64,000 nt of DNA from positions 34,408 to 98,407 of the forward strand of contig SKCR01041853.1 in NCBI GenBank assembly GCA_019454045.1, in the 5' to 3' direction. This document shows positions 3,100 through 44,600 of this stretch, in pieces. The DNA is from Zanthoxylum bungeanum. Its lineage: Eukaryota; Streptophyta; Magnoliopsida; Sapindales; Rutaceae. Made by a program: the position numbers and the translations under genes. Position 1 is the stretch's first letter. Each line of letters opens with the position of its first letter. Under the pieces are notes generated by a model that worked only from the letters and a program-made list of their open reading frames with translations, was not told the DNA's origin and did no database searches.

Positions 3100-4508
3100 T
3101 ATCTAACACATGAACTATGTACATGTCGCTCAAACTTTTGTTGAGATATAGCCTTCGTCAGCGGATCTGCAATGTTATCATCTGATGCGATCTTCTCGAT
3201 CTTCACATCGCCACGATGTATGATCTCACAAATTAGATGAAATCGTCGAAGTACATGCTTGGATCGTTGATGAGACCGTGGTTCCTTAGCCTGTGCGATA
3301 GCCCCCTATTGTCACAATACAAAGGTACGAGCTCAGCTGCTAATAGAACTACTCCTAATCCAATTAGGAATTACGGATCCAAACTACTTCTTTTGCTGCC
3401 TCAACTGCAGCAATATATTCTGCTTCAATTGTTTAATCAGAATAGTCTATTGCTTGGAATATCTCTAGCTCACTGCTCAGTTGTTTAAACAAAATATGTA
3501 TTCTGATTGTGACTTACAATCATGTTTATCGGTTTGGAAACTTGCATCGGTGAACCCAGTCACCTCAAGTTCTCATTCCCAATAGATTAAGAAAGCATCT
3601 TTAGTTCGTCTAAGATACTTAAGGATGTTCTTTACAGCAATCCAGTGACCATCACCTGGATCAGCATGATAGCAACTGCACATGCTCAAAGCATATGAGA
3701 CATCAGGTCGCGTACATATCATGGCGTACATGATCGATCCGACTGCTGAAGTATACGGGATCCGAATCATTGCATCTCTCTCATCTTCAGTTTTAGGACA
3801 CATATCCTTCGATAGAGAGACGTCATGTGACCCCAGAAGCAGCCCCCTCTTGGACTGATCCATGTTGAATCTCTTCAACACTTTGTCAATGTACGAGCTC
3901 TGGAAGAGTGCCACCAGCTTTCTAGATCTATCCCTGTAGATCCTTATACCTAGAATAAAGACTGCCTCTCCCAGATCTTTCATGGAGAATTTTAATGAAA
4001 GCCAAGCTTTCACCGATTGTAGCATGGGAATGCCATTTCCAAGAAGCAATACATCATCAACGTATAGGACAATGAATGTCAGTGCGCTCCCACTAACCTT
4101 CTTATATACACAAGAATCATCTTCGTTTTGAATGAAACCATATTCTTTTATGATCTCATCAAAACGATGGTTCCAAGAACACGATGTTTGCTTTAATCCA
4201 TAAATGGATCGGTTTAACTTGCAAACCTTGTTTACATGTCTTAGTACGACAAAACCATTAGGTTGTTGCATATAAACATCCTTCAAAAGGTTTCCGTTAA
4301 GGAAAGCGATTTTGACATACATTTGTCATATTTCATAATCGAAATATGCAGCAATAGCAAGCATTATCCGAATGGATTTAATCATGACAACGAGTGAAAA
4401 GGTTTTGTCGTAATCGACACCATGTCGTTGACGATACCCTTTAGCTACAAGCCTAGCTTTGTACGTTGTATGTTGCCTACCATGTCTGTCTTCTTTTTGA
4501 AAATCCAT
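3100..4508 (-). pseudogene. C1 reverse transcriptase and RNase H (broken)
   Basis: Codes for the Copia RVT_2-type reverse transcriptase, which copies element RNA into DNA, followed by RNase H. At 4326-4508 is the conserved start ([16 protein letters not shown]). After a break at 4322-4326 come AFLNGNL, the CKLNRSIYGLKQ segment, the catalytic YVDD box (LYVDDVLLLGN) and TRPDVSYALS up to 3573. A stop then interrupts RNase H. Its TDASFQTDKHD segment and the EAEYIAAVEAAKEVVW segment (about 3370-3430, another frame) remain recognisable. Several frameshifts and stops make it non-functional. Confidence 0.92.
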
Positions 4509-4761
4509 TTATAACCAATATGCTTAATGCCTTCTGGTACATCAACCAGTGTCCAAACTTTGTTGGTATACATGGAATCCATTTCGGACTTCATGGCTTC
4601 TTGCCATAAAGCGGAGTCGATACTTGTATCACTTCCTCATACGTAGCCGGTTCATCTTCCTCAATAAGATTAATATCTACATGAGGTGAGATCAGAAACC
4701 CATACCTCTCAGGCTATTTTTTGAGTCTCTCCGACTTACGCGGTTCTTGTGTATTAGAAGA

Positions 4762-5817
4762 TTATAGAACAGTCTCATCTCTGATGGACTGTTTATGTTC
4801 CGTAAGGGGGTCGATGCCAGGAATAGTATCACTCCGATTTTCATCGAGTTCTACTTTCCTCCCACTTACCACTGCATTCATGAATTTATTTTCTAGGAAA
4901 ACCGCATGAAGAGCAACAAATATTTTGTTCTCTTGTGGGTTGTAGAAATAATATCCTTTCGTTTCCTTAGGATAACCTACAAATAGGCACTTATCCGATT
5001 TGGGTTCTAGTTTGGTACTATCCAAATGTTTAACATATGCCCAGCATCCCCAAATCTTCAGGAATAAAAAAACCGGTTTCTTTCTAGTCCATATCTCATA
5101 TGGAGTCTGTTCAACGGACTTTGACGAAACCTTATTCAAAATAGGTATTGCACTGTTTAATGCATATCCCCAGAAGGAAATCGGTAGCTCTGTGCGACTC
5201 ATCATTGACCTTACCATGTCCAAAAAAGTTCGGTTTCTCCGTTCGGACACACCGTTCAATTGAGGTGTTTCTGGAGGAGTCCACTGTGAAAGAATACCAT
5301 ATTCTTTCAAGTAATCTTGAAACTTATTGCTTAAGTATTCTCCACCACGGTCCGACCGTAATATTTTAATACTTTTGTCAGTCTGTTTTTCTACTTCGTG
5401 TCGAAACTCTTTAAATTTCTCAGAAGTTTCCGACTTGTGTTTCATAAAATACACATAACCATAACGCGATGCATCATCCGTAAAGGTTACGAAGTATTCA
5501 TATCCACCTCTAGCCTGGCTAGACATGGGCCTGCATACGTAACTATGAACGAGGGTGAACAACTCGGTTGCACGTACACATTTACCACTAAAAGGTGTTT
5601 TAGGTATTTTGCCTAACAAACAAGATTCGCAGACATCATATGAATTAGGATCAAATCCGTCCAAGTATCCATTCTTCGAAAGTGTGGATATACGAGTTGT
5701 GTTAATGTGTCTCAGACGACAATGCCACAAATAAGTCTCATCCATTTTACTCAATTTGAGCTTTTTGTTTGTTATGTTATATGTTTGAGATTCATTTATA
5801 TTCAAAATATAAACCAA
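4762..5817 (-). pseudogene. C1 integrase (open but active site damaged)
   Basis: A 351-codon frame covering GAG-pre-integrase and the rve core of Copia integrase, which joins element DNA to the chromosome. Visible are the zinc-binding H-x4-H (HCRLRH) and CESC pair, TFTDDASRYGYVY, the second catalytic Asp in LRSDRGGEY and the Glu in GVSERRNRT. The first catalytic Asp, normally in a H(S/T)DVCGP-like segment, is Tyr here (HSYVCRP), so the enzyme should be inactive. The frame has no proper start. It is an internal part of a polyprotein. The connector to RT (4509-4761) is out of frame. Confidence 0.92.
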
Positions 5818-6179
5818 TATTCACATCTGTTGTACATATCAAAATATCATATTTATAAACAAACTACCCAGTGTTCCTGAATACAAAGGTATACCGGCAT
5901 CGGGTTAAACTAGATACAAGATAATATTCCTAGTCAAACTAGGTACAAAATAACAATCGCCTAATGTAAGTACATGCCTTGAGGGAAAATTAAAAACATA
6001 GGTGCCAATGGCCAAAACAGCGACTCTCGTCCCATTTCCGACTCGCATGTTGATCTCCCCTGAAGCCAGTCTCCTACTAATCTACAGATCATGCACATCA
6101 GTACATATGTGAGTACTACATCCAGTATCAAAAATCTAATTTTTAAAACTAGTAGTAGACATGTTTATTTCAATAACAA

Positions 6180-15968: not shown

Positions 15969-17483
15969 AAGATTTTGCTAGTCATGAGCAAAAGACTAAA
16001 TAAAAACTAAATAAAAATAAACAAATAAAAGTAAAAAATTAACTAGGCCATTTTATTAGGGATCATGATTATACATGGCAAAAAAGTCCGGGCCCGGGCT
16101 TAAAATAATAATTAAATATTTTTAATTATAAAATATATATATTTATATATTAAATTTTTTATTTTTATAATTTTTTATAATAAAAAAATCGGCCCCGGTC
16201 TTAAAATAAATAATTAAATATTTTTTATTATAAAATATATATATTTATATATTAAATTTTTTATTTTTATAATTTTTTATAATAAAAAATCGGGCCCAGG
16301 TTGGGCTTTTCCTGGGCCCGGGCCAAATTATTTTTTTACTGGGCTCGGGCCGGACTTGTCAAAGCCCGGCCCGTTGCCATCCCTAATCACGATTGCATTT
16401 AGCGTATGCAACAAGCCTTTAAACTCCTAGGCGACCCTAATGGACGAGTTATAGTCTTGTGAGGGCTTACAGCGACGGCACCCACAAACATCATTCACAC
16501 ACGTGCAATCATGCAAAAATTAAATATAAAACAAGCAAGTAAAATAGTCCAAATAGTTACACATTATTTTGTCCTCAAAGAATGCCTTTAGTGAAATCAG
16601 TGTACCTTCAAAGTACTCAATACAACCTAAATCCAAGTTTTTGAATAAATCATTTAAGCCAGACTCTGTGTGTGTTTGTAAAGGTTCAGTCACAGCTCGA
16701 CTCCTAAGTTAGCCAACTCGATGATTTTGTCTCAAAAATTGGGATCCAATGGGTCAAACCAACCTAGATATCTCAAAAATACTATGTAATTGTCTTTCTT
16801 TACTCAGTATGATATGGTTTTTTTTTTTATTCATTTCATCATTTTTTTTCAACACACCTACCCTTTAAGGTAGCATTTCTCCTCATGGTGGTCCTAACAC
16901 TCACTCATGAGTAGCTTCACGCTTATCGATTATAGGTGGTTTAATTTTTTTCCTCTTTTTCGTTTTTTCTTTTCTATCTTCTTTTGTTTTTAACAATACC
17001 ATACATCATAACACTAGCAAATCGAGATAGACATATAAGCAAACAGATCGACAAGTAATTTTTTCAACTAGTCACTTTGTCAACTAACTAGGCTCTTAAT
17101 GTTAAAAACCTATTGTTAAGTACTTACGAGTCTAACCTAGATCACTTACTCAAGGCATGCAACCACCCAAGTGGTCATGGTGGCTTCAATGTAGCGGACC
17201 AGTTAATCTCATGGGATTTCTTCTTTGGTATCCACCAATGATTATGACATGAAAAAGATAGCATGGCTGCCTATAGCAATTTATCCATGGATGGTCCTCT
17301 AGGATCTACTGATGTTTGAAATTTTGGACTGTATATGTGATAAAATTGGCTCGACCACTTTTTGAGCTTTCCATGGATCATCTTAAGGCGAGCATTGACT
17401 CTTGATTTCATCTTTTTACGGCGTTTTGAGAGTTGTTTCAGTTTTGGCTACGGATGATCTTCTTTTATGCATGGCTGCATTGT
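15969..17483 (-). other. B1 3' untranslated interior
   Basis: No gene. It contains a block near 16385-16490 that is conserved before the LTRs of B2, LOG1 and LOG2, the MITE at 16071-16385, and a stretch near 16860-16940 (CCTACCCTTTAAGG) also present in B2 at 34905-34985. The last 5 bases (ATTGT, 17479-17483) are the LOG1 target duplication. Confidence 0.75.
16071..16385 (+). mobile_element. MITE, probably hAT superfamily, with internal duplication
   Basis: Ends are imperfect inverted repeats (ATACATGGCAA... and ...TTGCCATCCCT) rich in GGGCCCGGGC. It is flanked by ATCATGATT (16062-16070) and ATCACGATT (16386-16394), a 9-base near-duplication. B2 (31080-31100) shows the same site without the insertion. 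Inside, a segment of about 110 bases (CGGGC plus an AT-rich run) occurs twice in tandem. No coding capacity. The size and GC-rich ends fit non-autonomous hAT elements, whose usual TSD is 8 bp. Confidence 0.7.
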
Positions 17484-17793
17484 TGATGAGTGGGAAATCT
17501 ATCACTATTTCCCACTCATTTAACCTAATATTTTGTATAGTTTCTTGAGTTTTGTGAACGTTTTGATGTATTTTGTGTTATTTTGCAGATAAATAAAGTT
17601 TGGAAAGCATTGGAGGCAATTTGGGGCAAAAACTGACAAAAATGCGTCAACAGGGATATTTTGGTCTTTAGCGCGTCGCGACTCTGAAGACTTGCGCGTC
17701 GCGACGTCTAAAATGCGTCGAACAGTGCTAATGTGCGCCGGGTCCACATATCAGAATATGAGAAAAGTTTGACTTTGCTAAAATGCGCCGTGC

Positions 17794-18240
17794 CACGTGT
17801 CAACATCATAGCCGATCTGCTAAAATATGCCGTGCCACGTGTCAGCATCCTACGGTGCCGACAATCATCATCGCCACGTGTTCCACGTATCACTCCATGT
17901 CATCAGCCACGTCAGCAAGTCAACAAGTCAAAATTGCCACGTGTCGTGCCACGTCATCATCAGCCAATCAGGAAGTGACACGTGTCGCAATTCTACGGTA
18001 CCGACAGTCTCTTTCCCACGTGTCGCCACGTCACCGCCATGTCATCGCCATGTCAGCATCAATAATTGAGTATCTAATCCTTATCTGACACGTGGCGGAT
18101 AAGAATCTTAGCAACCAATCAGAAGCCGCCACGTGTCACAATAATTGAAGCCCAACCACCGCGCCACGTGTCACCTTATCAGCTTATCCAGAATCTTCAA
18201 ACCAGTGAACCAGAGCGTGCCACGTCGACAAAATCTGGCG
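17794..18240 (+). promoter_or_regulatory. G-box cluster in the LTR promoter
   Basis: Nine CACGTG hexamers start at 17794, 17836, 17875, 17938, 17979, 18017, 18089, 18130 and 18165. Most sit in GCCACGTGTC, with more CACGTC/CACGTA near-matches between them, plus CCAATCA boxes near 17964 and 18115. ACGTG cores are bound by plant bZIP and bHLH factors (ABA, light and stress response). The cluster ends about 50-125 bases before the TATA box, so it probably governs element transcription. The 3' LTR also has nine, at partly different sites. Confidence 0.75.
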
Positions 18241-18289
18241 TAGCGACGCTGAGGACCTGGCGTCGCAACGCTGGAAGCTTATCCGCGCC

Positions 18290-18296
18290 TATAAAT
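18290..18296 (+). promoter_or_regulatory. TATA box of the LOG1 element LTR
   Basis: TATAAAT in the context CGCGCCTATAAATTGAG, after the G-box cluster and before a CTCTCT-rich stretch. The 3' LTR has it at 26181-26187. Confidence 0.75.
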
Positions 18297-18602
18297 TGAG
18301 CTCGAGATTTCAGAATTCAGGGCACCACTTTCTCTCTTATAATCTTTCTAAAGAGAGAGTTTCTCTCTCTACTTTCTTTTAATTTTTAGTTTTTAGTTTT
18401 TAGTTTTGTAATTAATTTTAATTACGTTTTGTTAATATAGTAATTTAATTTTTACTTTTTACTTTTTACAGTTTTTATTATTTACCATGAGGAGGTAACT
18501 CCCCCAGCTAGGGTGAAAGGTAATTCTTTTACTGTTACTATTTAGATTAATCTCCCTTAAAAATAATATATTCACTATTTAAAATATTGACTTAAAAAGG
18601 AT

Positions 18603-18762
18603 ACCGCCAGATTGGTCGATTGGTAATTCATTTTAATTTGATTTAAACCTGACTAATAAAGGATACCGCCAGATTGGTCGGTTGGTAATTTAATTTTGGT
18701 TCCGCCTTTATGGCTGGTTGGACTTAATTTGACTTAATCAGGTTACCGCCTATATGGCTGGT
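18603..18762 (+). repeat. Four hairpin-motif copies in the transcribed LTR
   Basis: Copies at 18603-18620, 18665-18682, 18701-18718 and 18745-18762 fit ACC-RCC-N5-GGY-Y-GGT: a 6-bp stem with one bulged pyrimidine and a 5-base loop. Copies 1 and 3 each have one end base changed. All lie downstream of the TATA box, so they would be in the RNA leader. The same motif recurs in the 3' LTR, E3 and LOG2. Confidence 0.7.
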
Positions 18763-19672
18763 TGGAAAAAGAATCACAAGTTTATATATTATTTTATGGG
18801 AGATATCTAAATTAGTAGTAGTAAAAGTAATTCCTTTTACCTTAGCATTTTATTTTATTGTAATTTACTCTTCAGTATTTACTTTACCGCATTTTTACTT
18901 TATGTCTTTTACTTTCAAGTTTTTACTAGCCCTAGTTATGTGTTGTAACTAAATTAGTTATCTGGGGTTGTGATGAAATCCAATATCACCGTTTTATAAG
19001 GGTAGATTATAGCTTGGGTAATATAAAGATTTATTTATTGAGTCTTAAACTTAATGCTTTTTCATTAACTGGCCATTAATAAAATTGATCTGGTAAATCT
19101 AAAATGAACTAGACATAGGGATTTTAGGTTTCAGCCTTAGACTCAATAGCCCATGATCTTCCTTGAGGATAGATAACCCTTTAATAGATTTCCTTACAGG
19201 ATAGGAATATACCTGTCGGGCGGGGGTAGCCATAATTGGAACTTAAACTTAATGAATCCAGATAATTTGGTTGACATAGACATATGGTTCAATTGGGTTA
19301 AACTGGGTATTTGTGTCTGACCATCGACAGAGGCTTACACATAATTTAGTGTTCCAGGTTAATAAATCAATATATTACCAAACTTTAAGATAACCACTTC
19401 ATCTTTAAAATGATATTGGAAGAAATCACAACCCTAGATAGTTTTTAATATTGAATTTTCTTAAAACCTATTTTCGACAATTTTATTTACTTGCTTTTAA
19501 ATTTAGAATCGTCACCATTTCAAATCAATCAATCAACCTGTTAGATATTAGTAAATTTGACCTCATAAAATTAATAGAATAGATATTAAGTCCTCGTGGA
19601 TCGATATTTTTATACTACTTGAACGATACGTGCGCTTGCGTTATACGTGTGTGTTTACACCGGTCAAGTTTT

Positions 19673-19689
19673 TGGCGCCGTTGCCGGGA
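19673..19689 (+). other. LOG1 element primer-binding site, tRNA-Asp
   Basis: TGGCGCCGTTGCCGGGA, complementary to the 3' end of plant tRNA-Asp, as in Athila and Tat elements. It lies 6 bases after the LTR. Confidence 0.93.
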
Positions 19690-19797
19690 CTTATTTATCT
19701 TTCACTATTAATTTAGGGGTTAGATACCGTTACTTGTATCTAATTTCTTTTTACTGATTGTCGTTGTTTTCTTGTGTTTCAGGTTCTCAGATTCTTC

Positions 19798-20754
19798 ATG
19801 AGACGAACCAGAAGCTTTGAACTCCGACCGCTTGACCCAGAAATTGAAAGAACCATCAGACAGTTGAGAAGGGAAAGGCGAGAAGGCCAAGAAGCTTTAG
19901 TCAACATGGAACCTGAACCTTTGAACGTTGCACCACCAATTCCAATTCGAGATAGAACCATTCCGGTGGTTGACAGACTCATTTCCTGTATTGTACTTCC
20001 TCCCTTACCAGCAAATGCGTGTGACATCAAAACATGCATTCAGATGATTCAGCAGTCAGTTCAGTTCGGGGGGAATGCAACTGAAGATCCTAATGCCCAC
20101 ATCAGTAACTTCCTGGAAGTTTGCGGTACTTTCAACTACAACAGAGCATCAGAAGAAGCAATGAGACTGCGAGTTTTTCCATATTCCCTGAAGGACAGAG
20201 CTAAAGCTTGGCTACATTCACTACCAGCAGGTTCTATCACAACTTGGAACACTTTAGCCACCAAATTTCTTGCAAAATACTTTCCACCAGCCAGAACCGG
20301 AAAGCTGAGGAATGACATCACATCCTTTGTACAACAAGATTCAGAATCCCTCTGCGAAGCTTGGGAAAGGTACAAAGATTTGCTCCGGAAATTTCCTCAC
20401 CATGAGATTCCAAAATGGCTTCAAGTCCAAACATTCTATAATGGGCTTTCTGGAATAATGAGAACCACAATCGATGCTGCTGCTGGAGGAGCTTTAATGG
20501 CAAAAGGAGAAGATCAAGCCTGGGACCTAATCGAAGAAATGGCCAACAACAATTCCTTGTGGCCAACAGAAAGAAGCATGATCCAAAGAATTGCAGGAAT
20601 TTATGAAGTTGGAGCAAACACAGCAGTGAATACCAGGCTAGATCAGATATGCAAATGTCTAGAAACACTTAGCACGCAAGTTGTGAACATCGCTGGAACC
20701 ACAAGTTCACCATATGGAGGAGCACCAGAGTCGAACAACATGAAGAGACGGTGA
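19798..20754 (+). CDS. gag: Athila-type gag (capsid) of the LOG1 element
   Basis: Packages element RNA into particles. The first ATG is at 19798 (MRRTRSFELRPLD). The same start is seen in E3, so I prefer it to the GTG 24 bases upstream. The retrotransposon gag domain spans about residues 85-230: FGGNATEDPNAHI, RLRVFPYSLKDRAKAWL, FPPARTGKLR, WERYKDLLRKFPHH and FYNGL. At its end the frame stops at 20752-20754, while the expected continuation (VNYVNNFN) is in the -1 frame. That is one base missing near the junction, or less likely programmed frameshifting. The domain itself looks intact. Confidence 0.92.
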   Translation: MRRTRSFELRPLDPEIERTIRQLRRERREGQEALVNMEPEPLNVAPPIPIRDRTIPVVDRLISCIVLPPLPANACDIKTCIQMIQQSVQFGGNATEDPNAHISNFLEVCGTFNYNRASEEAMRLRVFPYSLKDRAKAWLHSLPAGSITTWNTLATKFLAKYFPPARTGKLRNDITSFVQQDSESLCEAWERYKDLLRKFPHHEIPKWLQVQTFYNGLSGIMRTTIDAAAGGALMAKGEDQAWDLIEEMANNNSLWPTERSMIQRIAGIYEVGANTAVNTRLDQICKCLETLSTQVVNIAGTTSSPYGGAPESNNMKRR

Positions 20755-22106
20755 ATTATGTCAACAATTTCAACAGACATGAGAACAATCCATATTCCAA
20801 CACCTACAACCCATGGTGGAGGAATCATCCTAATTTTTCATGGAGCAACAATTCAGGCCAACAACAGAACTACCCACCACATGGATTCCACCAGCAGAAC
20901 AAAGGCCAGAAGCATGAAAAAGAACCAGAAATGAAAGAATGGTTTGCAGAGATGTTCAAAAAGCAAGAAGCAAAATACGATGCTATGTTTCAAGCTCAAA
21001 CAACATTCAATCAAAGCCAATCAGCTTCTATTAAAGCACTGGAGAATCAAATTGGACAACTGGCAAATGCTCAGAGTTACAGACCGCCAGGTACCATTCC
21101 TAGCAACACAGAGCCAAATCCAAGAAACATTGGGAAGGAACAATGTCATGCCATCATGTTAAAAAGCGGTACTGAAATCAACAAAGATGTTGGAGCCAAA
21201 ACAGCTGCTGAGGAAGTTCCAAAAGAAATAACGCAACAGATGGAGGAAAAAGAAGCAAAGGAAAAAGAACAAATCATTCCACCTCCACCTTTTCCTCAAC
21301 GTCTTCAGAAGAACAAATTGGACAAGCAATTTTCCCGGTTCCTGGAGATCTTCAAAAAGCTGCATATCAACATTCCATTTGCAGAAGCGTTGGAACAAAT
21401 GGCCACCTATGCCAAATTCATGAAAGATATTCTTTCACGAAAACGGAGATTGGGAGATTACGAGACAATAACATTAACAGAAGAATGCAGTGCCATTATT
21501 CAGAGGAAACTTCCCCCAAAGTTGAAAGATCCTGGCAGTTTCACTGTTCCTTGCGTCATAGGAGAACATAACTTTGGTAAGGCTTTATGTGATTTAGGTG
21601 CTAGTGTTAACTTGATGCCTTTTTCTATTTTCAGGAAATTACAGATTGGAGAAATAATGCCAACTTCAGTCTCACTGCAACTTGCTGATAGAACGCTCGT
21701 ATTTCCAAGAGGCGTAGTTGAGGATGTGCTGGTCAAGGTTGACAAATTCATTTTCCCAGCAGATTTTATTGTCCTTGATATGGAGGAAGACGCAGACGTG
21801 CCAATCATCCTAGGGAGACCGTTCTTGGCTACAGGTCGAACCATTATTGATGTACAAAAAGGAGAACTAACCATGAGGGTACATGACCAAGAAGTAACAT
21901 TCAATGTTTTCAAGGCCATGAATTTCCCAGATGAAAAAAAGAAGGAGGAATGTTTCAAACTCGATGTGATACACAGTACCATTCAGAACTCTGATGAAAG
22001 ACAAAGTTCTACTGACAAACTTAAAACATGTCAATTGCCTGTGGAGCCTAAAGATAAAGCATCTTTTGCACTGAAAGAGCCAATTCTTGCTCTACAAGCA
22101 ACATAA
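20751..22106 (+). CDS. Athila-type gag C-terminus and aspartic protease
   Basis: Begins with no ATG, in the -1 frame to gag, with NPYSNTYNPWWRNHPNFSW, the usual Athila gag C-terminal segment. A Lys/Glu-rich linker with KEWFAEMFKKQEAKYDAMF follows. The retropepsin-like protease has its catalytic Asp in DLGAS at about residue 280 and IILGRPFLATGR at about residue 352. It cleaves the gag-pol polyprotein. The frame ends with TAA at 22104-22106, where RT should follow. Instead integrase tail sequence continues in the same frame. Confidence 0.9.
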   Translation: MNYVNNFNRHENNPYSNTYNPWWRNHPNFSWSNNSGQQQNYPPHGFHQQNKGQKHEKEPEMKEWFAEMFKKQEAKYDAMFQAQTTFNQSQSASIKALENQIGQLANAQSYRPPGTIPSNTEPNPRNIGKEQCHAIMLKSGTEINKDVGAKTAAEEVPKEITQQMEEKEAKEKEQIIPPPPFPQRLQKNKLDKQFSRFLEIFKKLHINIPFAEALEQMATYAKFMKDILSRKRRLGDYETITLTEECSAIIQRKLPPKLKDPGSFTVPCVIGEHNFGKALCDLGASVNLMPFSIFRKLQIGEIMPTSVSLQLADRTLVFPRGVVEDVLVKVDKFIFPADFIVLDMEEDADVPIILGRPFLATGRTIIDVQKGELTMRVHDQEVTFNVFKAMNFPDEKKKEECFKLDVIHSTIQNSDERQSSTDKLKTCQLPVEPKDKASFALKEPILALQAT

Positions 22107-22466
22107 GAGAAAAAGTTTCACCAGCTCAACGAATTGGAGAAATTTCACAATCAGCCTTTTGAAGATTCCAAATTGTACAAAGAAAAGGGCAAGAAAAGAC
22201 ATGATGAGAAGTTAGTGCGCATACAACTAGAACCAGGGCAGAAGGTACTGTTAAACAAATCAAGGGTGAAATTCTTCCCATGGAAGCCAAAATCACGGTG
22301 GTCAGGTCCATTTGTGATCACCAAAGTTTTACCAAATAGAGCCGTTGAGATACATGATCCTGACGCTAACAAAACTTTCAAGGTTAAAAACAAGCGTGTC
22401 AAGCACTACTGGGGAGAATCATTTGAGCGACAAAAAGAAAGTGTTACATTTTCATATCCAGCTTAA
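22107..22466 (+). pseudogene. Integrase C-terminal remnant after a pol deletion
   Basis: In the same frame as the protease, right after its stop, comes the end of Athila integrase: FHQLNELEKFHNQPFEDS, then KVLLNKSRVKFFPWKPKSRW and SGPFVITKVLPNRAVEI. RT, RNase H and the integrase catalytic core are absent, a deletion of several kb. One TAA separates the two parts, so stop readthrough would give a protease-integrase-tail fusion. It has no catalytic function. Confidence 0.9.
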
Positions 22467-22481
22467 CATTCGAGAAGTCAA

Positions 22482-22527
22482 GTCTGGCTGACGACTTTAA
22501 ACTTAGCGCTCGCAGGGAGGCAACCCA
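22482..22527 (+). promoter_or_regulatory. Conserved post-pol motif (GGGAGGCAACCC type)
   Basis: A stretch from GTCTGGCTG through TTAGCGCT to GGGAGGCAACCCA follows the integrase end. It recurs at 34267-34312 (B2) and on the minus strand at 53887-53932 (LOG2), where little coding sequence survives. I recall similar GGGAGGCAACCC sequences after pol in many plant Athila elements. Role unknown; a part in making the downstream mRNA is possible. Confidence 0.65.
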
Positions 22528-22604
22528 TGCAATTTGTGTATATATTGTGATTTGGTGTGTTTTATTTTTGTGTGTTTAATTTTTGCAGGTTTAGTCATTT
22601 CAAA

Positions 22605-23024
22605 ATGGAAGAAGCTCTCGCAAATCTTCACAAGCAATTTCCTTCTCTCCCTCAAAAATCTATAATGAAAGTTTACAAAGCTCGCTTGGAACGAATGAGA
22701 CTACTGACGATCCACGGTATTCCTAATGATATTCGTTGGGTAATTGAAGCACGATTCCGATTGGCAGGTGAGTCTTCTGACTCTTTTATTTCACATCTGC
22801 CTGGTTTCGGAAGAAGCACCTATGCAAAGAAACGTAGAGCTAAGCAAATGGGTGTTTGTTTCAAATGTGCACGATTTAATTGCAACACTCGTTGTCGTTC
22901 TTTAGGAATGGTGTCTGATAATCGCGAAGACAAAATTAAATTCATTAGGGATGGCTTGAGTAAGGAGTCTTTAGATGATATATCTTTAACTCTTGAGACG
23001 CATCCAGTGGATATGTTCATATAG
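22605..23024 (+). CDS. Unknown frame between pol and LOG, Cys-rich centre
   Basis: 139 residues from the ATG at 22605 (MEEALANLHKQF). I do not recognise it. It is basic in the middle (YAKKRRAKQMG) and has CFKCARFNCNTRC, a C-x2-C-x4-C-x3-C pattern that could bind zinc. The rest is predicted soluble, with no signal peptide or membrane span. A splice-acceptor-like TTTTTGCAG lies just before the ATG. In LOG2 only the tail of this region remains (about 53700). It occupies the start of the Athila env-like region. It may be a decayed element protein or further captured host sequence. Confidence 0.5.
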   Translation: MEEALANLHKQFPSLPQKSIMKVYKARLERMRLLTIHGIPNDIRWVIEARFRLAGESSDSFISHLPGFGRSTYAKKRRAKQMGVCFKCARFNCNTRCRSLGMVSDNREDKIKFIRDGLSKESLDDISLTLETHPVDMFI

Positions 23025-23410
23025 CCATTCGCAAATTACATACACAATTCCAAAAGGAAAGACAATGTTAAGTCTCGGGAATTTGACTCAAAAACACCCT
23101 GTTTGCCAATTTATAAGAAAATTGGATGGGAAACTTGTCCCTGACGCATAGACGTCAATCAAGCCGTTACTTTTCTTGTAAATATTATATCTCTTGTCTT
23201 TTCTTAATAATTGTGATTTGTTTTGTTGTTTTATTTTATTTTCTCTGACAGGATCCAGACCTTTTTGACTATCATGATATTAATTCGCTAATAATCATCC
23301 TCTGGAAGATACTTGTGCTATTTTTTACTCACCATTTTCAGGTACTATAAATTCAGCCCGTCATTGCACTTTTAAAGGCATCCAGAGTTGAGAAAGAAAT
23401 ACATAAAAAA

Positions 23411-24063
23411 ATGGAAGCCACTTCAAGAAGACGAGTTGAAAACATCTGTGTATTTTGCGGTAGTAGTGTTGGAACTAAGCCACAATACATAGAAGCAGCA
23501 CAAGAATTGGGTCGAGTCTTAGCTGCAAGGAATATGCACTTAATATATGGCGGAGGAAATCTTGGACTTATGGGGATCGTTTCAAAGGCTGTACAGGAAG
23601 GAGGCAGTCATGTTTTGGGAATCATCCCAAAACCCTTGGCAGAGGCAAATCTTATTGAACCATCAAACGGAGAGGAACTGATCGTACCAGGTATGTCTGA
23701 ACGACTAGTGGAAATGATTAACCGTGCTGATGCTTTTATTGCTTTGCCAGGTGGCTTGGGTACATTGGAGGAATTTTTATTGTGTTATCTTGGGCGAACC
23801 AGAACATACACCAGAAACCAATTGGGCTGTACAACGTTGATGGATTTTATGATTTTCTTTGTGTGTTTCTTGATGATGCTCGGAGAAATGAGTTCATATC
23901 AAAACCTTTAAAAGAACTCTTATTTACTGCCAGAACTGCTCCAGATCTAATTGACCAACTCATAGCCTATGAACCAAAAGTTGACCCTATCATTTCAAAG
24001 ATAAATTGGTCTGAGGATGATCGTGGTAAGAGACGTCGGATTAATCTGGATCTTAACCTTTAA
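23411..24063 (+). pseudogene. LOG: Captured LOG (cytokinin riboside monophosphate phosphoribohydrolase), frameshifted
   Basis: LOG enzymes release active cytokinin base from the riboside 5'-monophosphate in the cytosol. The ATG at 23411 opens a frame with RRVENICVFCGSSVGTKPQY, GGGNLGLMG (residues 47-55), and the active-site PGGxGTxxE box as PGGLGTLEE (113-121). One base is missing near 23772, right after that box. The rest (WANQNIHQKPIGLYNVDGF to the stop at 24061) is in the next frame. With that base the length would be 217 codons, normal for LOG. It has no introns, unlike plant LOG genes, so capture was from RNA. The tail ends in KRRRINLDLNL. It is non-functional as read. Confidence 0.93.
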
Positions 24064-24123
24064 TTTCCTGTAGATTTTCAGCTAACCAGGTATTATTTTC
24101 TAAACTCTTCTTCTACTGTTTAA

Positions 24124-24161
24124 GACATTGGGGACAATGTCTCATTTAGGTTTGGGGGAGG
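24124..24161 (+). other. Inverted repeat and internal purine tract after LOG
   Basis: GACATTG-GGGA-CAATGTC (24124-24141) is a perfect 7-bp inverted repeat. It is followed by AGGTTTGGGGGAGGGA, close to the 3' polypurine tract at 25361. The same pair sits after LOG2 (52676-52711), and a weaker version is in B2 (34503-34540). It could act as a second plus-strand primer or a structural signal. Confidence 0.6.
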
Positions 24162-25360
24162 GAATTAGTTTATTAGTACCTTGTTTTTAGTTGTGTGTGT
24201 GTTATTTTATTTTTAGTCCAAAATTTTCGAAAAATACAAACAAATTGGAAATTTTTTTTATGTTTTTTTGTGTTTTTATTTTGACTAAAAAGGTGAAATT
24301 GGTAAGAGATAGCTGAGTAAGGAGTTTCCACTCCTGAGACGTATCTCAAACCATTTTTGAAACAAGTTAATTTTTGTTTATTTCCTTTTAAATTATTTAA
24401 TTTGTGAATTCTCCATAAAACGGACTAAAATGAATCTTCATATGCTCAGTTGACAGGTATTATCAACAAACATGGAAACATACAGACATGAGCTAAAATT
24501 GAAAAGTTTGTAATATTCAGTGCTCTAGTTTAATCGTAGGAAGCATCTCAAAGAGTGATGGAGTAAAAAAAAAAAAAAAATCTGAGATCTGAGTTATTAA
24601 GTCTGTAAGGGTGTTTTAACACCTAGTGCCCTAAAACCAACTGGTTTGGGAGTCACTGGCCCAAAGCTCGTTACATGGATCAAAGATGCTGCAAAAATAT
24701 ATATATCTGAAGTCTGAGTAATTAAGTCCGTAGGGGTGTCTTAACACCTGGTGCCCTAAAGCCAACTGGTTTGGGAGCCACCGACCTAACACTCGTTACA
24801 TAGATGGAAGATATTGTATATAATAAAAAAATAGAAAAAAAAATCAAAGAAAAAATCGGAAAATTGAGAAAAATTATTCCATTGCTACCAAAAGGTGTTA
24901 AATCTGATAGAACTTTAGGACAAAAATATTACTCTCTTATCAACTGCACTTATGACTGTTGTGGGAAAAAATGAGTTGTTTAATATTTTGTTGGCTGTGT
25001 ATATAAAGAATGGTAAAAATAATCGGAGAATTTACTTATTCTGTAATTTAGAATGAAACAAAACAACTATTACTTGGAGTAGAAGTTTCACCTGATTAGT
25101 CACTAACTTCTTATTCTATTTTCTCTTGTCTTTTTGCTTTTGTGTGCATTAGTTTTAACTAACTTTTTACTTTTGTAAAAATGTTTGTGGGTATCATTGC
25201 TGTAAACCCTCACGAGACTACAACTCGTCCACTAGAGACACCTAAGGGTTTAAAGGCTTGTTGCATACGCTAAATGCAACCGTGATCCCTACGAAAGTGG
25301 CTTAGTTAATTTATTTATGTTATTTTACTCTATGTTTTGCTCGAGGACTAGCAAAATGTT
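24162..25360 (+). other. LOG1 element 3' untranslated region with a tandem repeat pair
   Basis: No gene. A segment of about 100-130 bases occurs twice (24582-24708 and 24709-24810; TTAAGTC..GGGTGT and ACCAACTGGTTTGGGAG). The same pair is in LOG2. Near the end, 25185-25300 is a block conserved before the LTR in B1, B2 and LOG2 (CCCTCACGAGACTACAACTC, GGCTTGTTGCATACGCTAAA). Confidence 0.75.
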
Positions 25361-25373
25361 AGGTTTGGGGGTG
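25361..25373 (+). other. LOG1 element polypurine tract
   Basis: AGGTTTGGGGGTG directly precedes the 3' LTR start TGATGAG. Such purine tracts prime plus-strand DNA. Confidence 0.9.
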
Positions 25374-27559
25374 TGATGAGTGGTAAATCTATCACTATTT
25401 CCCACTCATTTAACCTAATATTTTGTATAGTTTCTTGAGTTTTGTGAAAGTTTTGATGTATTTTGTGTTATTTTGCAGATAAATAAAGTTTGGAAAGCAT
25501 TGGAGACAATTTGGGGCAAAAACGGACAAAAATGCGTCAACAGGGATATTTTGGTCTTTAGCGCGTCGCGACTCTGAAGACTTGCACGTCGCGACGTCTA
25601 AAATGCGCCGAACAGTGCTAACGTGCGCCGGGTCCACATATCAGAATCTGAGAAAAGTTTGACTTTGCTAAAATACGCCGTGCCACGTGTCAACATCATA
25701 GCCGATCTACTAAAATGCGCCGTGCCACATGTCAGCATCCTACGGTGCCGACAATCATCATCGCCACGTGTTCCACGTGTCACTCCATGTCATCAGCCAC
25801 GTCAGCAAGTCAACAAGTCAAAATTGCCACGTGTCATGCCACATCATCATCAGCCAATCAGAAAGTGACACGTGTCGCAATTCTATGGTACCGACAGTCT
25901 CTTTCCCACGTGTCGCCACGTCACCGCCACGTCATCGCCACGTCAGCATCAATAATTGAGTATCTAATCCTTATCTGACACGTGGCGGATAAGAATCTCA
26001 GCAACCAATCAGAAGCCGCCACGTGTCACAATAATTGAAGCCCAACCACCGCGCCACGTGTCACCTTATCAGCTTATCCAGAATCTTCAAACCAGCGAAC
26101 CAGAGCGTGCCACGTCGACAAAATCTGGCGTAGCGACGCTGAGGACCCTGGCGTCGCGACGCTGGAAGCTTATCCGCGCCTATAAATTGAGCTCGAGATT
26201 TCAGAATTCAGGGCACCACTCTCTCTCTTATAATCTTTCTAAAGAGAGAGTTTCTCTCTCTAGTTTCTTTTAATTTTTAGTTTTTTAGTTTTTAGTTTTG
26301 TAATTAATTTTAATTACGTTTTGTTAATATAGTAATTTAATTTTTACTTTTTACTTTTTACAGTTTTTATTATTTACCATGAGGAGGTAACTCCCCCAGC
26401 TAGGGTGAAAGGTAATTCATTTACTGTTACAATTTAGATTAATCTCCCTTAAAAATAATATATTCACTATTTAAAATATTGACTTAAAAGGATACCGCCA
26501 GATTGGTCGGTTGGTAATTCATTTTAATTTGATTTAAACCTGACTAATAAAGGATACCGCCAGATTGGTCGGTTGGTAATTTAATTTTGGTTCCGCCTTT
26601 ATGGCTGGTTGGACTTAATTTGACTTAATCAGGTTACCGCCTATATGGCTGGTTGGAAAAAGAATCACAAGTTTATATATTATTTTATGGGAGATATCTA
26701 AATTAGTAGTAGTAAAAGTAATTCCTTTTACCTTAGCATTTTATTTTATTGTAATTACTCTTCAGTATTTACTTTACCGCATTTTTACTTTATGTCTTTT
26801 ACTTTCAAGTTTTTACTAGCCCTAGTTATGTGTTGTAACTAAATTAGTTATCTGGGGTTGTGATGAAATCCAATATCACCGTTTTATAAGGGTTAGATTA
26901 TAGCTTGGGTAATATAAAGATTTATTTATTGAGTCTTAAACTTAATGCTTTTTCATTAACTGGCCATTGATAAAATTGATCTGGTAAATCTAAAATGAAC
27001 TAGACATAGGGATTTTAGGTTTCAGCCTTAGACTCAATAGCCCATGATCTTCCTTGAGGATAGATAACCCTTTAATAGATTTCCTTACAGGATAGGAATA
27101 TACCTGTCGGGCGGGGGTAGCCATAATTGGAACTTAAACTTAATGAATCCAGATAATTTGGTTGACATAGACATATGGTTCAATTGGGTTAAACTGGGTA
27201 TTTGTGTCTGACCATCGACAGAGGCTTACACATATTTAGTGTTCCAGGTTAATAAATCAATATATTACCCAACTTTAAGATAACCACTTCATCTTTAAAA
27301 TGATATTGGAAGAAATCACAACCCTGGATAGTTTTTAATATTGAATTTTCTTAAAACCTATTTTCGACAATTTTATTTACTTGCTTTTAAATTTAGAATC
27401 GTCACCATTTCAAATCAATCAATCAACCTGTTAGATATTAGTAATCATTTGACCTCATAAAATTAATAGAATAGATATTAAGTCCTCGTGGGATCGATAT
27501 TTTTATACTACTTGAACGATACGTGCGCTTGCGTTATACGTGTGTGTTTACGCCGGCCA
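25374..27559 (+). repeat. LOG1 element 3' LTR
   Basis: Partner of 17484-19666, about 98% identical by eye. It has nine CACGTG boxes (one lost to CACATG, one gained), a TATA box at 26181-26187 and hairpin motifs at 26494-26511, 26556-26573, 26592-26609 and 26636-26653. It ends CCGGCCA and is followed by the TSD ATTGT. Confidence 0.95.
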
Positions 27560-27564
27560 ATTGT

Positions 27565-28160
27565 GCTCGTTGGTTGCTTGAATCTTGGTTTACCCTGCAG
27601 GTTGGCTTGAATATATGGAGATAGGTCTAACACATGGTCATTATCTATTGCAACTCTCTTCCCTAAAATTTCTATCATGCGACATTCTTCATCACCTTGA
27701 AGACTTAGAATGGCTTTGAAAACACTGAATGTGACTTCTTCATCTTGAACTCTCATTTTCAGTTCACCTTTCTGCACATCAATTCACTCTGACAGTTGCC
27801 AAGAAAGGTCTCCCGATGATGATTTGGACCTCTTGATCCTCCTCAATATCTAGAATTAGGAAGTCATCAGGAAAGTAAAATTTACCCACCTTAACTAACA
27901 CATCATCCATTATTCCTCATGGGTAGGTGAGGTATCTATCTGCTAGCTGCAATGTGACAGTGGTTAGCTTTACCTCACCTATGCCCAACTATTTGTAGAT
28001 GGATAAGGGTATGAGATTTATACTTGCACCCAAATCGCATAGCGTTTTACCAGAATATCGATTTCCAATCGTGCACGGTATGGTAAAACTTTTAGGATCA
28101 TTTAGCTTTGGAGGGAGCTTCTTTTGTATAATAGAACTACACTCCTATTTGAGTGCTACT
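27565..28160 (-). pseudogene. B1 aspartic protease (broken)
   Basis: Minus-strand reading gives LCDLGASINLIP with the catalytic Asp, [28 protein letters not shown], then VQKGELKMRVQDEEVTF. Stops (for example within GIMDDVL and before CAERT) break it. This is the retropepsin-like protease of an Athila-type polyprotein. LOG1 is inserted just past its end, and no RT follows on the other side. Confidence 0.85.
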
Positions 28161-28575
28161 ATTTCAAAATCAGCCAGCTTCCTACTCTTGGACATCATCT
28201 TCTTCATGAACTTCACATAGTTAGGCATTTATTCCAAAGCGTCCGCGAATGGGATGTTGATATGTATCTTTTTAAATATGTCTAGGAATTTGGAAAATTG
28301 ATCATCCAATTTCTTCATTTGAAAGCGATGAGGGTATGACAAAGGTGTCTTCTGGATGAGGGTGGCTTATATGAATGAACGACTACACTGTTCTCTTATG
28401 TTGTTTTTGTTTCCTCTTGAAGTGCCACTTTTTTATTTTGTCTGCCTGGGTCCTGAGAGGTATCTTTAATCTATTTTCTACTCATAAGGGTTATGGCTTG
28501 GCACTGCTCCTTAGGATTTACCTCGGTATTACTGGAAAATACCATTTTCTGTTGATCAACCATGGAAGAAGCAAG

Positions 28576-29714
28576 CTACCCAATTTGCAATTCTAAAGAT
28601 TTCATTTTTGCCCCTATATTGTCCATATGTGTTTTAATATTGTTCAGCCTCGACTCATTCTTCTCAAACCTCTCTGAAGTTTTAGCAACAAACGTGCTCT
28701 TGAGGTTTTCTAAGGAAGGTTTCTGCTCAACTCTTTGATTATTGAAGCGAGTAAGAGGTTGAAAGGTTTTCTCTGGGTTTGCATATGACAAGTTCGGATG
28801 ATAGTAATTAGGCATAAGATTGCCTCTATAATTATTGAAGTTCTGATTGTTCACTTATTGGACTTGTTCAAAGTTTGATCCTCCGTCTGGTAAAGTCTTT
28901 CTATCAGCAGCCGAGCTTCAATAGATGGTTGCCTCATTTGATTTGTCAATACTGCAAGATGAGTCGTGAAGGATAACACTTGAGCTGTACGTGCAACAAT
29001 AGGATCCACCTCATATATACCAGCCACCTTAGTCACAGTAGAGCGTTCATTTGTTCATTGGAAATTATTAATGGTCATCTCCTCCAATAGAGCATAGACA
29101 TCTTCAGCATATTTCTTAAACAAGGTTCCTCCAGCAGCTGCATCGACCATGGTCTTGTTAAGAACATTCAACCCATTATAGAATAACTGAATCTGAACCC
29201 AGTCTTTATAATTGTGTTGTGGGCATCTCTTGAGGAGATCTTTAAAGCGCTTTCATGCCTCATACAGGTTATCGGTCTCCAACTGCTTAAATATGCTAAT
29301 TTATGTTCTCACTTGGGCTGATTTAGCGGGTGGAAAGAACCTCGTAAGAAATATTGTGGCCATATCCTGCCATGTCATGATGCTCCCCATCAGTATAGAT
29401 TGCAGACAACCTCTCGCCTTATCCCTTAAAGATAATGGAAACAAACGTAGCCTGATTGTCTCTTTAGTCATGCCATTCATCTTGATTGTATCTGCCATCT
29501 CCAAAAACATTCTTAAATGCACGTTCGGATCCTCTACAGCTGAACCCCCAAACTGGTTCTTTTGCACCATGTTGATCAATGTAGGTTTCAGCTCCAAATT
29601 GTTAGCATTGATTGGTGGATGCACAATCCCAAAATAATTATCGTCAATAATTGGTTTAAAGTGATCTCGGATTGCCACTTGGCGCATGTTGTTCTCTATG
29701 TTTTCAGTCGCCAT
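28576..29714 (-). pseudogene. B1 gag (broken)
   Basis: Frames at 29301-29714, 28851-29036 and 28576-28854 together cover Athila gag: QVAIRDHFKPIID, NQFGGSAVEDPNVHLRMFLE, RLRLFPLSLRDKARGCLQS and FFPPAKSAQ, then VAGIYEVD and NNQNFNNYRGNLMPNYYH. B2's gag at 32998-34155 is its close relative. 28161-28575 is linker sequence with stops. Gag would form particles; this copy cannot. Confidence 0.87.
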
Positions 29715-29830
29715 TGCTTCTTTCTCAATGCTCCTTTCACGAAATAAAATAAAAATTAAATAAATAAATAAAAATCTAAATTAAAGTCAATGTTACTTGA
29801 TAATAATATTAATGTGAATTAGATTAATAA

Positions 29831-32899: not shown

Positions 32900-34155
32900 A
32901 TGCGAAAATCCACAAGTCTCGACTCACTCATGTTTGACCCAGAAATAGAAAGAACAGCGAGGAGACTAAGGAAATAAAGGAAATTGAACAAGAAGCAATG
33001 ACAACTGAAAACAGAGAGATCAACCCACGTCAGGTGGCAATCAGAGATCACTTCAAGCCGATCATTTATGATACCTATTCTGGGATTTTCCATCAACCAA
33101 TCAACGCCAACAATTTCGAGTTAAAACCTGCATTGATCAACATGGTACAAGGAAATCAGTTTGGGGGTTCAGCTGTAGAGGATCCCAACTTGCACTTAAG
33201 GATGTTCCTGAAGATCACAGATACCATAAAGATAAATGGCGTGAGTAAAGAGGCTATCAGGCTACGCTTATTCTCATTCTCTTTACGAGATAAAACGTGG
33301 GATTGGCTTCAATCAATACAGACGGGGAGTGTCATGACATGGCTGGATATGGCCATAAATTTATTGAGAGGTTCTTTTCACCAGCTAAATCAGCTCAACT
33401 GAGGGCACATATCAGTATAATTAAGTAGCTGGAGACTGAGACTTTGTATGAAGCATGTGAGCGATTTAAAGATCTATTACGAAGATGCCCACAACACGAT
33501 TATGCCCTGGCCCAGATTTAATTGTTCTATAATGGGCTGAATGGTTCGAATATGACTGTGGTTGATGCAGTAGCTGGTGGAGCTCTATTCAAGAAATCAG
33601 CTGAGGATGCCTATAATTTGTTAGAAAAAATGGCCATTAACCATTTTCAATGGCCAAGTGAACGCGCTACTGTGACCAAAGTGGTTAGAATACATGAAGT
33701 GGACCCTCTTGTAGCACTTACAGCTCAGATTTCCACCTTATCTACTCAAGTAGCAGCACTGACAAATCCACGAGTACCATCTATTGAATCAGTGGCAGCT
33801 ACAAATATGCAGTTATTGGAAGGAAACCCGAACTTTGAACAAGTCCAATATGTGAACAATCGGAACTTCAACAACTATAGAGGAAATCATGTGCCTAACT
33901 GTTATCACCCAAACCTGTCATATGCTAATACAGAGAATGCCTTGCAACCTTAATCTGATTTCAACTATCAAAGAGCTGAGCATAAATCATCATTGGAAGA
34001 CTTCATGAGCATGTTTATTGATAATACTTCAGCAAGGTTTGAGAAGAATGATTCAAGGCTAGACAATATTGAGACACACATGGAAAATATCGGGGCAACA
34101 ATGAAGTCCTTAGAAAAACATATTGGGCAGATTACTTCCACCATGACTAAGCAGT
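32900..34155 (+). pseudogene. B2 gag (broken)
   Basis: TTENREINPRQVAIRDHFKP from 32998, then NQFGGSAVEDPNLHLRMFLK, RLRLFSFSLRDKTWDWLQS, a frameshift near 33370, a stop near 33427, and from 33522 FYNGLNGSNMTVVDAVAGGALF. VRIHEVDPLVALTAQ and NNRNFNNYRGNHVPNCYHPN follow, then a stop near 33951. The tail (ARFEKNDSRLDNIETHMENI) is the Athila coiled segment. Sequence then passes directly to the post-pol motif at 34267, without protease or pol. Confidence 0.87.
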
Positions 34156-41667: not shown

Positions 41668-44600
41668 TGTAGGACACAGAAACTGGGTGACGAATGCTGT
41701 TATAGGCTCGCGGCCTAGTTGGGAGTACGGAGTAGCCCGCGGGGGACTAAAGCGGAGAATAATGGAGTCGCCACCCGGTGTGAACCGGGACAAAGATTTA
41801 AGGCCGCACTCACCCCTCGCAAGGGAAGACCTCAAACCATTGGGTTCGGAATGGTCCCTTACTTATGCCACTTGTAATGATGTGATTTGTGCAATAATTT
41901 AATCGAATCTAGCAACATACATTCCCAAGGGTATTCTATTTCACATGCATAAGTACAAGGCTCATATCTAAGTTTGCATATAACCTATGTCCGAATTTGC
42001 ATGCAACCTATTTGCATATAACCTATGTCCAAATTTACATGCATAAAGGTAAATTGAAATACGGCAAACATGCAAATTCATAAGCACATTATATTCATGG
42101 ATACGGAAATGCAAGCAAACAATAATCATACAAGCATGCATAAAATTGAATCAGAATAATGGCAAGCGCATAATTTCACAAACACATTGCATTTATAATC
42201 ATGGAAACGCAAACAAGCAATAATTATACAAGCATGCATATTAAAGAGGGGCAATTAAGCGCATAATGTAAAAAAATAAATAGAGAGGAAATCATACGTT
42301 AAAATAAACATGACATGGTGCGTTGCAAAATGATGCATGATTATGCAAGAAGATGACATACAAAGAAAAGCAAATAACGAAATAAAAGGCTCGGCGAAGT
42401 ATCGTGGTAAAGGTAAACCGTAGGCTTTTTATCCCTCAAAATAGAGGACCTTTAATCCAACTAACTAAGCCCATGCGCATCACATCATAATCCATATAAA
42501 AGTAAGGACAATAATATTAGACTTCGTATCCCCGACTGAACACGTCTTACATTCAACCGAATATACATCATCCGGCGCGGCAAAGCATCGTGGTAAATGC
42601 TTTTAACCCCTCGACATGGAGGACCTTTAATCCAACTTACTAAGCCCATGCGCTAATAACATAATACATATAAAAATAAAGACAACAATATCGGAATTCG
42701 TATACCCGATTGAACATATCTTACATTCGACCAAATATACATCATCCGGCGCGGTAAAGCATCGTGGTAAATGATTTTAACCCCTCAACATGGAGGACCT
42801 TTAATCCAACTTACTAAGCCCATGCGCATCACATCATAATGCATATAAAAGTAAGGACAACAATATTGGACTTCGTATCCCCGACTGAACACGTCTTACA
42901 TTCAACCGAATATACATCATCCGGCGCGGCAAAATATCGTGGTAAAGGGGATTTTAACCCCTCGACATGGAGGACCTTTAATCCAACTTACTAAGCCCAT
43001 GCGCTAATAACATAATGCATATAAAAAATAATGACAACAATATCGGACTTTGTATACCCGATTGATCACATCTTACATTCGACCGAATATACATCATCCG
43101 GCGCGGCAAAGCATCGTGGTAAATGATTTTAACCCCTCAAAATGGAAGAACTTTAATCCAACTTACTAAGCCCATGCGCTTTATCTCATCATTACACAAA
43201 TAAATAACATGCAGAAATTAAATAACGGATAATAAACAAACAAGACAAAATAAACCGAAATATGTGTCGTTTGCTCGAGTGGTATGTGGAGTTGTATCCC
43301 AAGTACAGACCGCACTACCATCCATTTGGATTCGGCTACGGAGTTTACGTCTGGGTTTCCATCCTATATACCACAAGAGGCGACACATTTTCCATTTTAT
43401 TCAAGGGCCACAACACACATCATTCCACAATACTCATGCAAATAATAAACAATAAAAATACGAATGAAAATAGATGTAAAAAGTGCCCTCAGGTCTAACC
43501 TTTTACGTCGACTCTCGGACTCGCGTTACACGGTGATCGGAAGGGCTAACGCTCCTCAACTTTTCTGGTTCACTGGTTTGCGTCTTTCCTCACTGTTTTC
43601 ATTACTCGGGCTGCTGTTTTCCAATGTTTCGCTGTTGTTTTTACTTCTGTTTTGGACTGCAGTTTTCTGGACTGTTTTGGGGTGATTTGTTCACTGTTTT
43701 TAGGGTGCAGTTCGGGACTGTTTTCAGAGATTTGGGAACTGTTTTGGGCAGTTTCTGGACTGTTTCAAGGGACTGTTTCGGTGCTTTGGTGGTCTGTTGA
43801 AGTGAGCTGAGTGGGGCACATTTTTATGGTGGTGATTTACGTGAACTGGGCTGTTTGCAGGTCTGTTCGTGAGTGGATACGTGAATTGAGTGAGGGTTTG
43901 TCTGGTTACTGCCGAGGTGTTGATTATGTGGCTCGTGGAGGCTGATTATTTTGTTTATTTCACGTGGGGATCTGCTGCATGGGTTCTTTGTATTTGGTCG
44001 GTGATGGGGCATGCGTGGCTTACGTTGAAGGTGGCTTACGTGAGTGTGAAGGTGGCGTTGAATGGCAGTTTGTTCGCTTGGTCAGAGGGTGTTAGGTGTA
44101 TTTTGTTTGTGTGTGCATGTGATTAGGGATGATGAATGGCGATTAATTGATGTGTTGGATGAAGAGGGGGGCTGGTTGAGTGGAGCGAGATCGTGGCGTG
44201 AAGGAATTGAGGCAAGGGGCGTGTGTCAATTTATGTTGTTTGTGAGGGCGGAAAGTGAGGTGTTTGAGAGTGGCCGAGGTGCTTAGAGATTAAGGGGCTT
44301 TTGAAGGCTATTAGGGTTTATATGTTTGAGAGAGAAGAGAGATGCATTTGTTTAGGGTTTCATTGTTTTGTGTATGGTGAGAGGAGTGAGCTGCCGTGAG
44401 TCCCTCTAGGGTTGTATTAAATTATATTTTATAGTGGTGCATTAGGGTTCGCATGGATTTTTAAACAAGGAAACAAGATCAATTAAAAAGGGATGGATTT
44501 TATTTAGTTTATTAAAGGAAATGAGGTTTGTATTTTTGGTGGGGAATATCTTTAATTGGTGAGTGATTTATTAAAATTATGAAGTGATTTATTAAAATTA

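Follow-up and report, generated by a model that had tools for sequence, protein, structure and literature searches.

Two accessory genes, one of LOG type and one resembling viral nucleic acid-binding proteins, in a probable Athila-like retrotransposon lineage from Zanthoxylum bungeanum

Does a long terminal repeat (LTR) retrotransposon of Zanthoxylum bungeanum carry LOG, a gene for a cytokinin-activating enzyme, as cargo, and has this cargo been maintained by selection or passively copied along with its carrier? The question is raised by a 64,000-nucleotide stretch of contig SKCR01041853.1 (positions 34,408 to 98,407 of the forward strand in assembly GCA_019454045.1; hereafter, the window), in which an LTR retrotransposon of 10,076 bases, element 1, occupies positions 17484-27559 of the plus strand. 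The original prediction, made from this DNA alone, held that element 1 contains an intronless LOG frame that was captured through RNA, moved with the element, and was novel as cargo. Our analysis indicates that element 1 probably belongs to a gypsy (Athila/Tat-like) lineage in which pol is separated from the 3' LTR by two accessory genes, namely, LOG and a gene related to the zinc-finger nucleic acid-binding proteins (NABPs) of carlaviruses.

The window contains a second LOG carrier, element 2, located on the minus strand (Table 1). Positions 23203-25483 of element 1 and 53646-51327 of element 2 are 84.9% identical, and this homologous stretch includes LOG and its flanks. Because two elements with different target-site duplications (TSDs) have LOG at the same place, LOG moves as cargo, and the prediction that it traveled with the element is borne out. 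Within the window, the flanks of the two LOG copies are common to both elements rather than unrelated. The LOG sequence of element 1 is of the predicted type and lacks introns, but it is not the single open frame that had been proposed: it is split over two frames (23351-23911 and 23731-24063), in both of which the PF03641 domain was found. Alignment with the second copy placed the frameshift near codon 120, at or just after the PGGxGTxxE motif. The LOG of element 1 is not a working gene; an intact LOG was ruled out by the two-frame layout and by the codon comparison with element 2.

Over 217 codons, the two LOG copies differ at 25 first, 17 second, and 49 third codon positions, and the dN/dS ratio calculated for this pair by the NG86 method was 0.248 (bootstrap range, 0.16-0.38; 500 replicates). 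Because the differences are mainly at synonymous sites, we conclude that the mobile LOG was subject to purifying selection. Neutral decay after insertion should have increased dN/dS. This selection operated during a good part of the mobile life of LOG. The codon comparison thus shows that the frame was under purifying selection before both copies died.

LOG relatives are numerous, at least 7832 of the 8000 candidates scored being of this kind; 77 of the 120 listed are full length (195-260 amino acids). The PF03641 domain and the PGGxGTxxE motif, by which a LOG is recognized, were both found. Among listed matches, this motif is kept in 72 of the 77 full-length element-type LOGs; the cellular comparison set, 114 full-length LOG1/LOG3-type proteins among 120 matches listed for a separate query, keeps it in 103. 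N-terminal extensions are present in 6 of the 120 listed relatives, and five of these were compared with the window (P0222 was left out). The extension of P0150 matches the LOG flank of element 1 at 23195-23410 (E 7e-13). For P0127 and P0130, the better match is to the LOG flank of element 2 (E 2e-4 and 1e-3, respectively), that to element 1 being weaker. The extensions of P0148 and P0231 gave no match to the LOG flank of the window. The occurrence of element flank before LOG in three of the five compared relatives supports a LOG that resides inside, and moves with, the retrotransposon.

The original prediction overlooked an open reading frame (ORF) located between the pol remnant and LOG. This ORF encodes a Viral_NABP/Carla_C4 protein scoring above the gathering thresholds of both PF01623 (29.1 versus 20.9 bits) and PF05515 (29.7 versus 23 bits). 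It comprises 139 amino acids, and its alignment with longer relatives attributes its early end to a frameshift. The search for NABP relatives returned 254 at E <=0.01 among 271 candidates, including clusters with hundreds of member sequences (566 in P0036 and 315 in P0068). Among the 120 listed, 47 have exactly 182 amino acids, 62 have 180-186, and 106 display the finger pattern C-2-C-4-C-3-C. In an alignment of the window ORF with 31 of the 120 listed relatives, PF05515 was detected in 29 of the 32 sequences and PF01623 in 28. Another retrotransposon sequence, L001, contains an integrase ORF (PF00665 and PF17921), followed by an unbroken 182-amino-acid NABP frame and then by a polypurine tract-like motif. 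Compared over 134 codons, the NABP sequences of the window and of L001 differ at 37, 20, and 59 first, second, and third positions, respectively. LOG was not found in L001, which would mean that NABP was acquired earlier than LOG or that L001 has lost its LOG. Positions 1-3330 of L001 are plant retrotransposon DNA filed under a Candidatus Nomurabacteria metagenome-assembled genome, presumably through contamination. Contigs of equal size occur in the NABP and LOG match lists, of 8723 (P0017/P0170) and 4511 bases (P0019/P0209); for contigs of at least 4 kb (11 NABP and 10 LOG contigs), these two coincidences compare with 0.0075 on average when 400 offsets are applied, the sharing being recognized by equal size alone. 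Equal sizes below 4 kb (748, 905, and 1018) were not counted as evidence of sharing.

How LOG entered the lineage can be approached from its borders. Homology between L001 and the sequence that follows LOG begins at CAGGTA. The 10-base direct repeat CAGGTACTAT lies on either side of LOG in element 2, and an imperfect version of it is present in element 1. The predicted capture through RNA finds some support in this repeat and in the lack of introns, but a repeat as long was obtained in 81 of 2000 shuffles. Because the alignment with L001 upstream of LOG gave T-rich chance matches alone, we retain the repeat only as a hint of a retrogene TSD. Judged from these borders, capture through RNA is plausible.

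These observations suggest the following scenario for the two-gene lineage. The accessory genes sit where retroviruses and Athila elements have env or env-like genes. The NABP-related gene would have been acquired first and LOG probably later, its likely source being the reverse-transcribed mRNA of a cellular LOG gene. Spliced subgenomic RNAs might serve for the translation of both genes, and acceptor-like sites are visible by eye before both ATGs. By analogy with its carlavirus relative, NABP could counter RNA silencing or alter host transcription: the p12 protein of chrysanthemum virus B (CVB), a carlavirus NABP, is described in PMC7588395 as a transcriptional activator in the nucleus and a silencing suppressor in the cytoplasm. 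LOG, if it acts as its family membership suggests, would free active cytokinin from the nucleotide, and cytokinin may favor dividing cells, a route for new insertions into the germ line. In element 1, the LOG and NABP frames are broken, and this copy must have been mobilized in trans. We regard as doubtful the more ambitious proposal of a retrovirus-like lineage in which a module combining a silencing suppressor or transcription activator with a cytokinin enzyme lifts silencing, drives division, and has been selected across eudicots.

Several points weigh against an NABP-LOG lineage of this kind. The LOG-bearing elements known as DNA are only two, both of them broken, and no NABP was recognizable in element 2. 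The shared NABP/LOG contigs were, as stated, identified by size. The NABP of L001 scores above the cut-off of PF05515 but below that of PF01623 (19.8 versus 20.9 bits). The predicted NABP model is poor (pLDDT, 64), and its best match in BFVD, the silencing suppressor of Fig latent virus 1, is not significant (E 1.2; TM, 0.21); a structural link to viral NABPs was dropped for this reason. Solved structures provided no credible match to the NABP profile (best E, 0.29). A non-viral descent of the NABP-like gene is conceivable, albeit less likely than not in our assessment: carlaviruses could have acquired it from a plant or a retroelement, or the likeness could reflect convergence in a short, basic zinc-finger region. 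In favor of this, the two Pfam matches found in the window ORF span 35 and 83 residues at ~1e-6, the six organism-named rows among the 120 listed relatives are all from plants (Xanthoceras, two Populus, Rhamnella, and two Orobanche), and tblastn detected no NABP relative in viral contigs (nor any LOG relative). Against such an origin, the window ORF scores above the cut-offs of two separate Pfam models, which are matched by 29 and 28 of the 32 aligned sequences.

The function of LOG is the next point of weakness. The Arg-Lys pair of the MxxRKxxM motif is present in only 9 of the 77 full-length element-type LOGs (67 changed and 1 not scored), in comparison to 114 of 114 cellular ones. At this place, elements 1 and 2 have MSERLVEM and MFERLVEM, respectively, and thus lack the cellular-type motif. 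Because the pair is mostly changed, the cytokinin activity of element-type LOGs is uncertain. A LOG tree was built from the best 60 of the 77 full-length relatives, the two window copies, 19 of the 114 cellular proteins, AtLOG8, and two bacterial LOGs. A branch with support of 100/95 separates the 62 window and element-type rows from the 20 cellular plant and 2 bacterial ones, a separation that is partly built in since the groups were collected by two different queries, with narrow cellular sampling; the retroelement location of most rows is an assumption. The stem branch of the element-type clade amounts to 0.35 changes per column. Together with the altered Arg-Lys pair, this long stem would fit a neofunctionalized LOG, a phosphoribohydrolase acting on another nucleotide rather than a cytokinin activator, but the conservation of PGGxGTxxE in 72 of 77 sequences and the clear family relationship (relative P0122 matches AtLOG3, 2a33, with E 2e-55) speak against it, and we consider this outcome rather improbable.

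Less probable still is a passive role, in which a processed LOG pseudogene inserted a single time into an element and was then multiplied with it, conferring no benefit. In favor of this, the two copies in the window are broken, and the 10-base repeat around LOG in element 2 is of the kind left by retrogene insertion; the dN/dS of 0.25 speaks against it, as do the 77 of 120 listed relatives with 195-260 amino acids, 72 of them with PGGxGTxxE. An assembly error or chance juxtaposition, which LTRs flanking LOG-free interiors would have indicated, was rejected for lack of support and is negligible in probability: within the window, the second LOG lies in a separate element, each of the two elements has its own TSD, and the LOG flank is common to three other records.

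The predicted retrotransposon is real: paired LTRs with TG...CA ends, ATTGT on both sides, a primer-binding site, gag, and a polypurine tract were all found. The LTRs are 98.1% identical over 2190 columns, with a Kimura two-parameter (K2P) distance of 0.0153 over 2181 sites. Plant substitution rates commonly used are 0.7-1.3e-8 per site and year, which places the insertion roughly 0.6-1.1 million years ago. The gag part of the predicted gag-protease was recovered by PF03732, whereas the protease frame had no Pfam match (20673-22106) and is presumptively named from the motif CDLGASVNLMP. This frame passes directly into a remnant of the integrase C terminus (45.6% identity with the end of the L001 integrase ORF over 114 amino acids; E 6e-31), itself without a Pfam match. 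Intact gag and pol are thus not both present. Because element 1 lacks reverse transcriptase (RT), RNase H, and the core of integrase at their usual position, it must have been mobilized in trans. The primer-binding site, which we take to be of the tRNA-Asp type, and the genes 3' of pol are Athila-type traits; with RT absent from element 1, the assignment to the Athila type is likely on these features. No tRNA genes were detected in the window.

Table 1. Positions of the features of elements 1 and 2 in the window
Feature	Position	Strand	Basis or remark
TSD ATTGT of element 1, left	17479-17483		
5' LTR of element 1	17484-19666	+	TG...CA ends
Primer-binding site TGGCGCCGTTGCCGGGAC	19673-19690	+	After 5' LTR
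gag ORF	19744-20754	+	PF03732, E 9.4e-23
gag C terminus and protease frame	20673-22106	+	No Pfam match
Integrase C-terminus remnant	22107-22466	+	Similarity to end of L001 integrase ORF
Carlavirus-type zinc-finger NABP gene	ORF 22551-23024, ATG 22605	+	PF05515 8e-7, PF01623 1e-6
LOG upstream flank with acceptor-like sites (by eye)	23195-23410	+	Common to element 2
LOG-like sequence with frameshift near codon 120	23411-24063	+	PF03641/PF18306
Internal acattggggacaatgt...ggtttgggggaggg motif, polypurine tract-like	24125-24162	+	3' of LOG; present in element 2, similar one in L001
Polypurine tract	25361-25373	+	Just before 3' LTR
3' LTR of element 1	25374-27559	+	Alignment with 5' LTR
TSD ATTGT of element 1, right	27560-27564		
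Element 2, related LTR element with LOG	57452-50736	-	Own TSD, same primer-site type
5' LTR of element 2	57452-55618	-	
LOG of element 2	53426-52773	-	Frame not shifted but interrupted by a stop at codon 158; PGGxGT with Ile in place of Thr
3' LTR of element 2	51436-50736	-	Internally shortened
TSD ACTTT of element 2	57457-57453 and 50735-50731		

Between LOG and the 3' LTR, element 1 contains a 125-base tandem duplication (24568-24812), with matching repeats in element 2 (52243-52043). Gag-protease remnants of related elements occupy 27652-29747 (minus strand) and 32900-34148 (plus strand), and element 1 either adjoins the former or lies within it. In element 2, dating by global LTR alignment gave a meaningless value owing to the shortened 3' LTR; compared piecewise, the three main pieces of its LTRs are 94-98% identical. 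In the interval that separates the post-pol motif of element 2 from its LOG flank (53873-53646, minus strand), short sequences resembling the 3' part of NABP (agacgcatcc and tacacaattcc) were noticed by eye, and this interval is possibly an NABP remnant. In the gag-pol place of element 2 (55522-54357, minus strand), two unusual ORFs include a knuckle-like stretch, CVICDGNYTSDQC, also recognized by eye, and 114-base units are repeated in tandem at 54492-54750. Elsewhere in the window, LTR-like fragments of the same kind (48134-45917, minus strand) adjoin a 47-base tandem array (45198-45734), a second array (42426-43180) consists of 4.3 copies of 175-base units with 87% matches, and ORFs recognized by eye as Copia-type integrase and RT pieces occupy 3573-5820 on the minus strand.

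If NABP and LOG work like their relatives, these elements would be plant retrotransposons equipped with their own counter-defense and growth-hormone genes, and the benefit that plant retroelements derive from genes located after pol would become directly testable. Some genes predicted as 'LOGL10' are possibly transposon genes rather than plant hormone genes; examples are the Populus rows P0177, P0184, and P0185, placed within the element-type clade.

The presence of LOG in a plant retrotransposon is a further case of a known phenomenon. Two Athila-like elements with similarity to LOGL4 were reportedly described by Steinbauerova et al. in 2011 (Genetica). The predicted novelty of the cargo does not hold, since section 12 of PMC9289625 reports a YgdH/LONELY GUY domain for gypsy elements from Populus and from two species of Citrus, a result described there as 'in line with' the 2011 study. 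Set beside the present elements by description only, those of Citrus and Populus likewise carry a LOG-type domain in Ty3/gypsy and probably belong to the same lineage; they appear there in a domain listing, the passages on them mentioning no selection test or NABP neighbor. Beyond this earlier listing, our results add a LOG cargo kept by selection and a second, viral-type neighbor. We found no paper on NABP in retrotransposons in the literature searched, which lacks most subscription journals, and the viral-type neighbor of LOG may be new. Athila4/Calypso-type elements have env-like ORFs between pol and the 3' LTR and a tRNA-Asp-type primer site. Element 1 shares with them the extra genes 3' of pol and the primer-site type, but its extra genes encode a viral-type zinc finger and an enzyme. 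Elements of this type are named in passages of PMC7264820, in which YgdH, lysine decarboxylase, carlavirus, and nucleic acid binding do not occur. The gypsy elements of Phalaenopsis, which also form a plant gypsy lineage with a fixed enzyme gene, carry an AlkB-type RNA demethylase whose activity was shown in vitro (PMC9289625); the enzyme and the lineage differ. A plant-virus-type gene, for a tobamovirus-like helicase domain, is likewise reported from the R1 LINEs of insects (PMC4686597), but these retrotransposons are non-LTR elements of insect hosts, and the viral gene is another one. Element NABPs and carlavirus NABPs, such as CVB p12, have in common a basic stretch followed by a cysteine finger (PF01623 and PF05515), the former being longer (182 amino acids in 47 of the 120 listed) and retrotransposon borne. 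Finally, the element LOG shares its sequence family and the PGGxGTxxE motif with plant LOGs (AtLOG3, PDB 2a33; AtLOG8, 1ydh), from which it differs by forming a separate clade, by the mostly changed Arg-Lys pair, by the lack of introns, and by its mobility.

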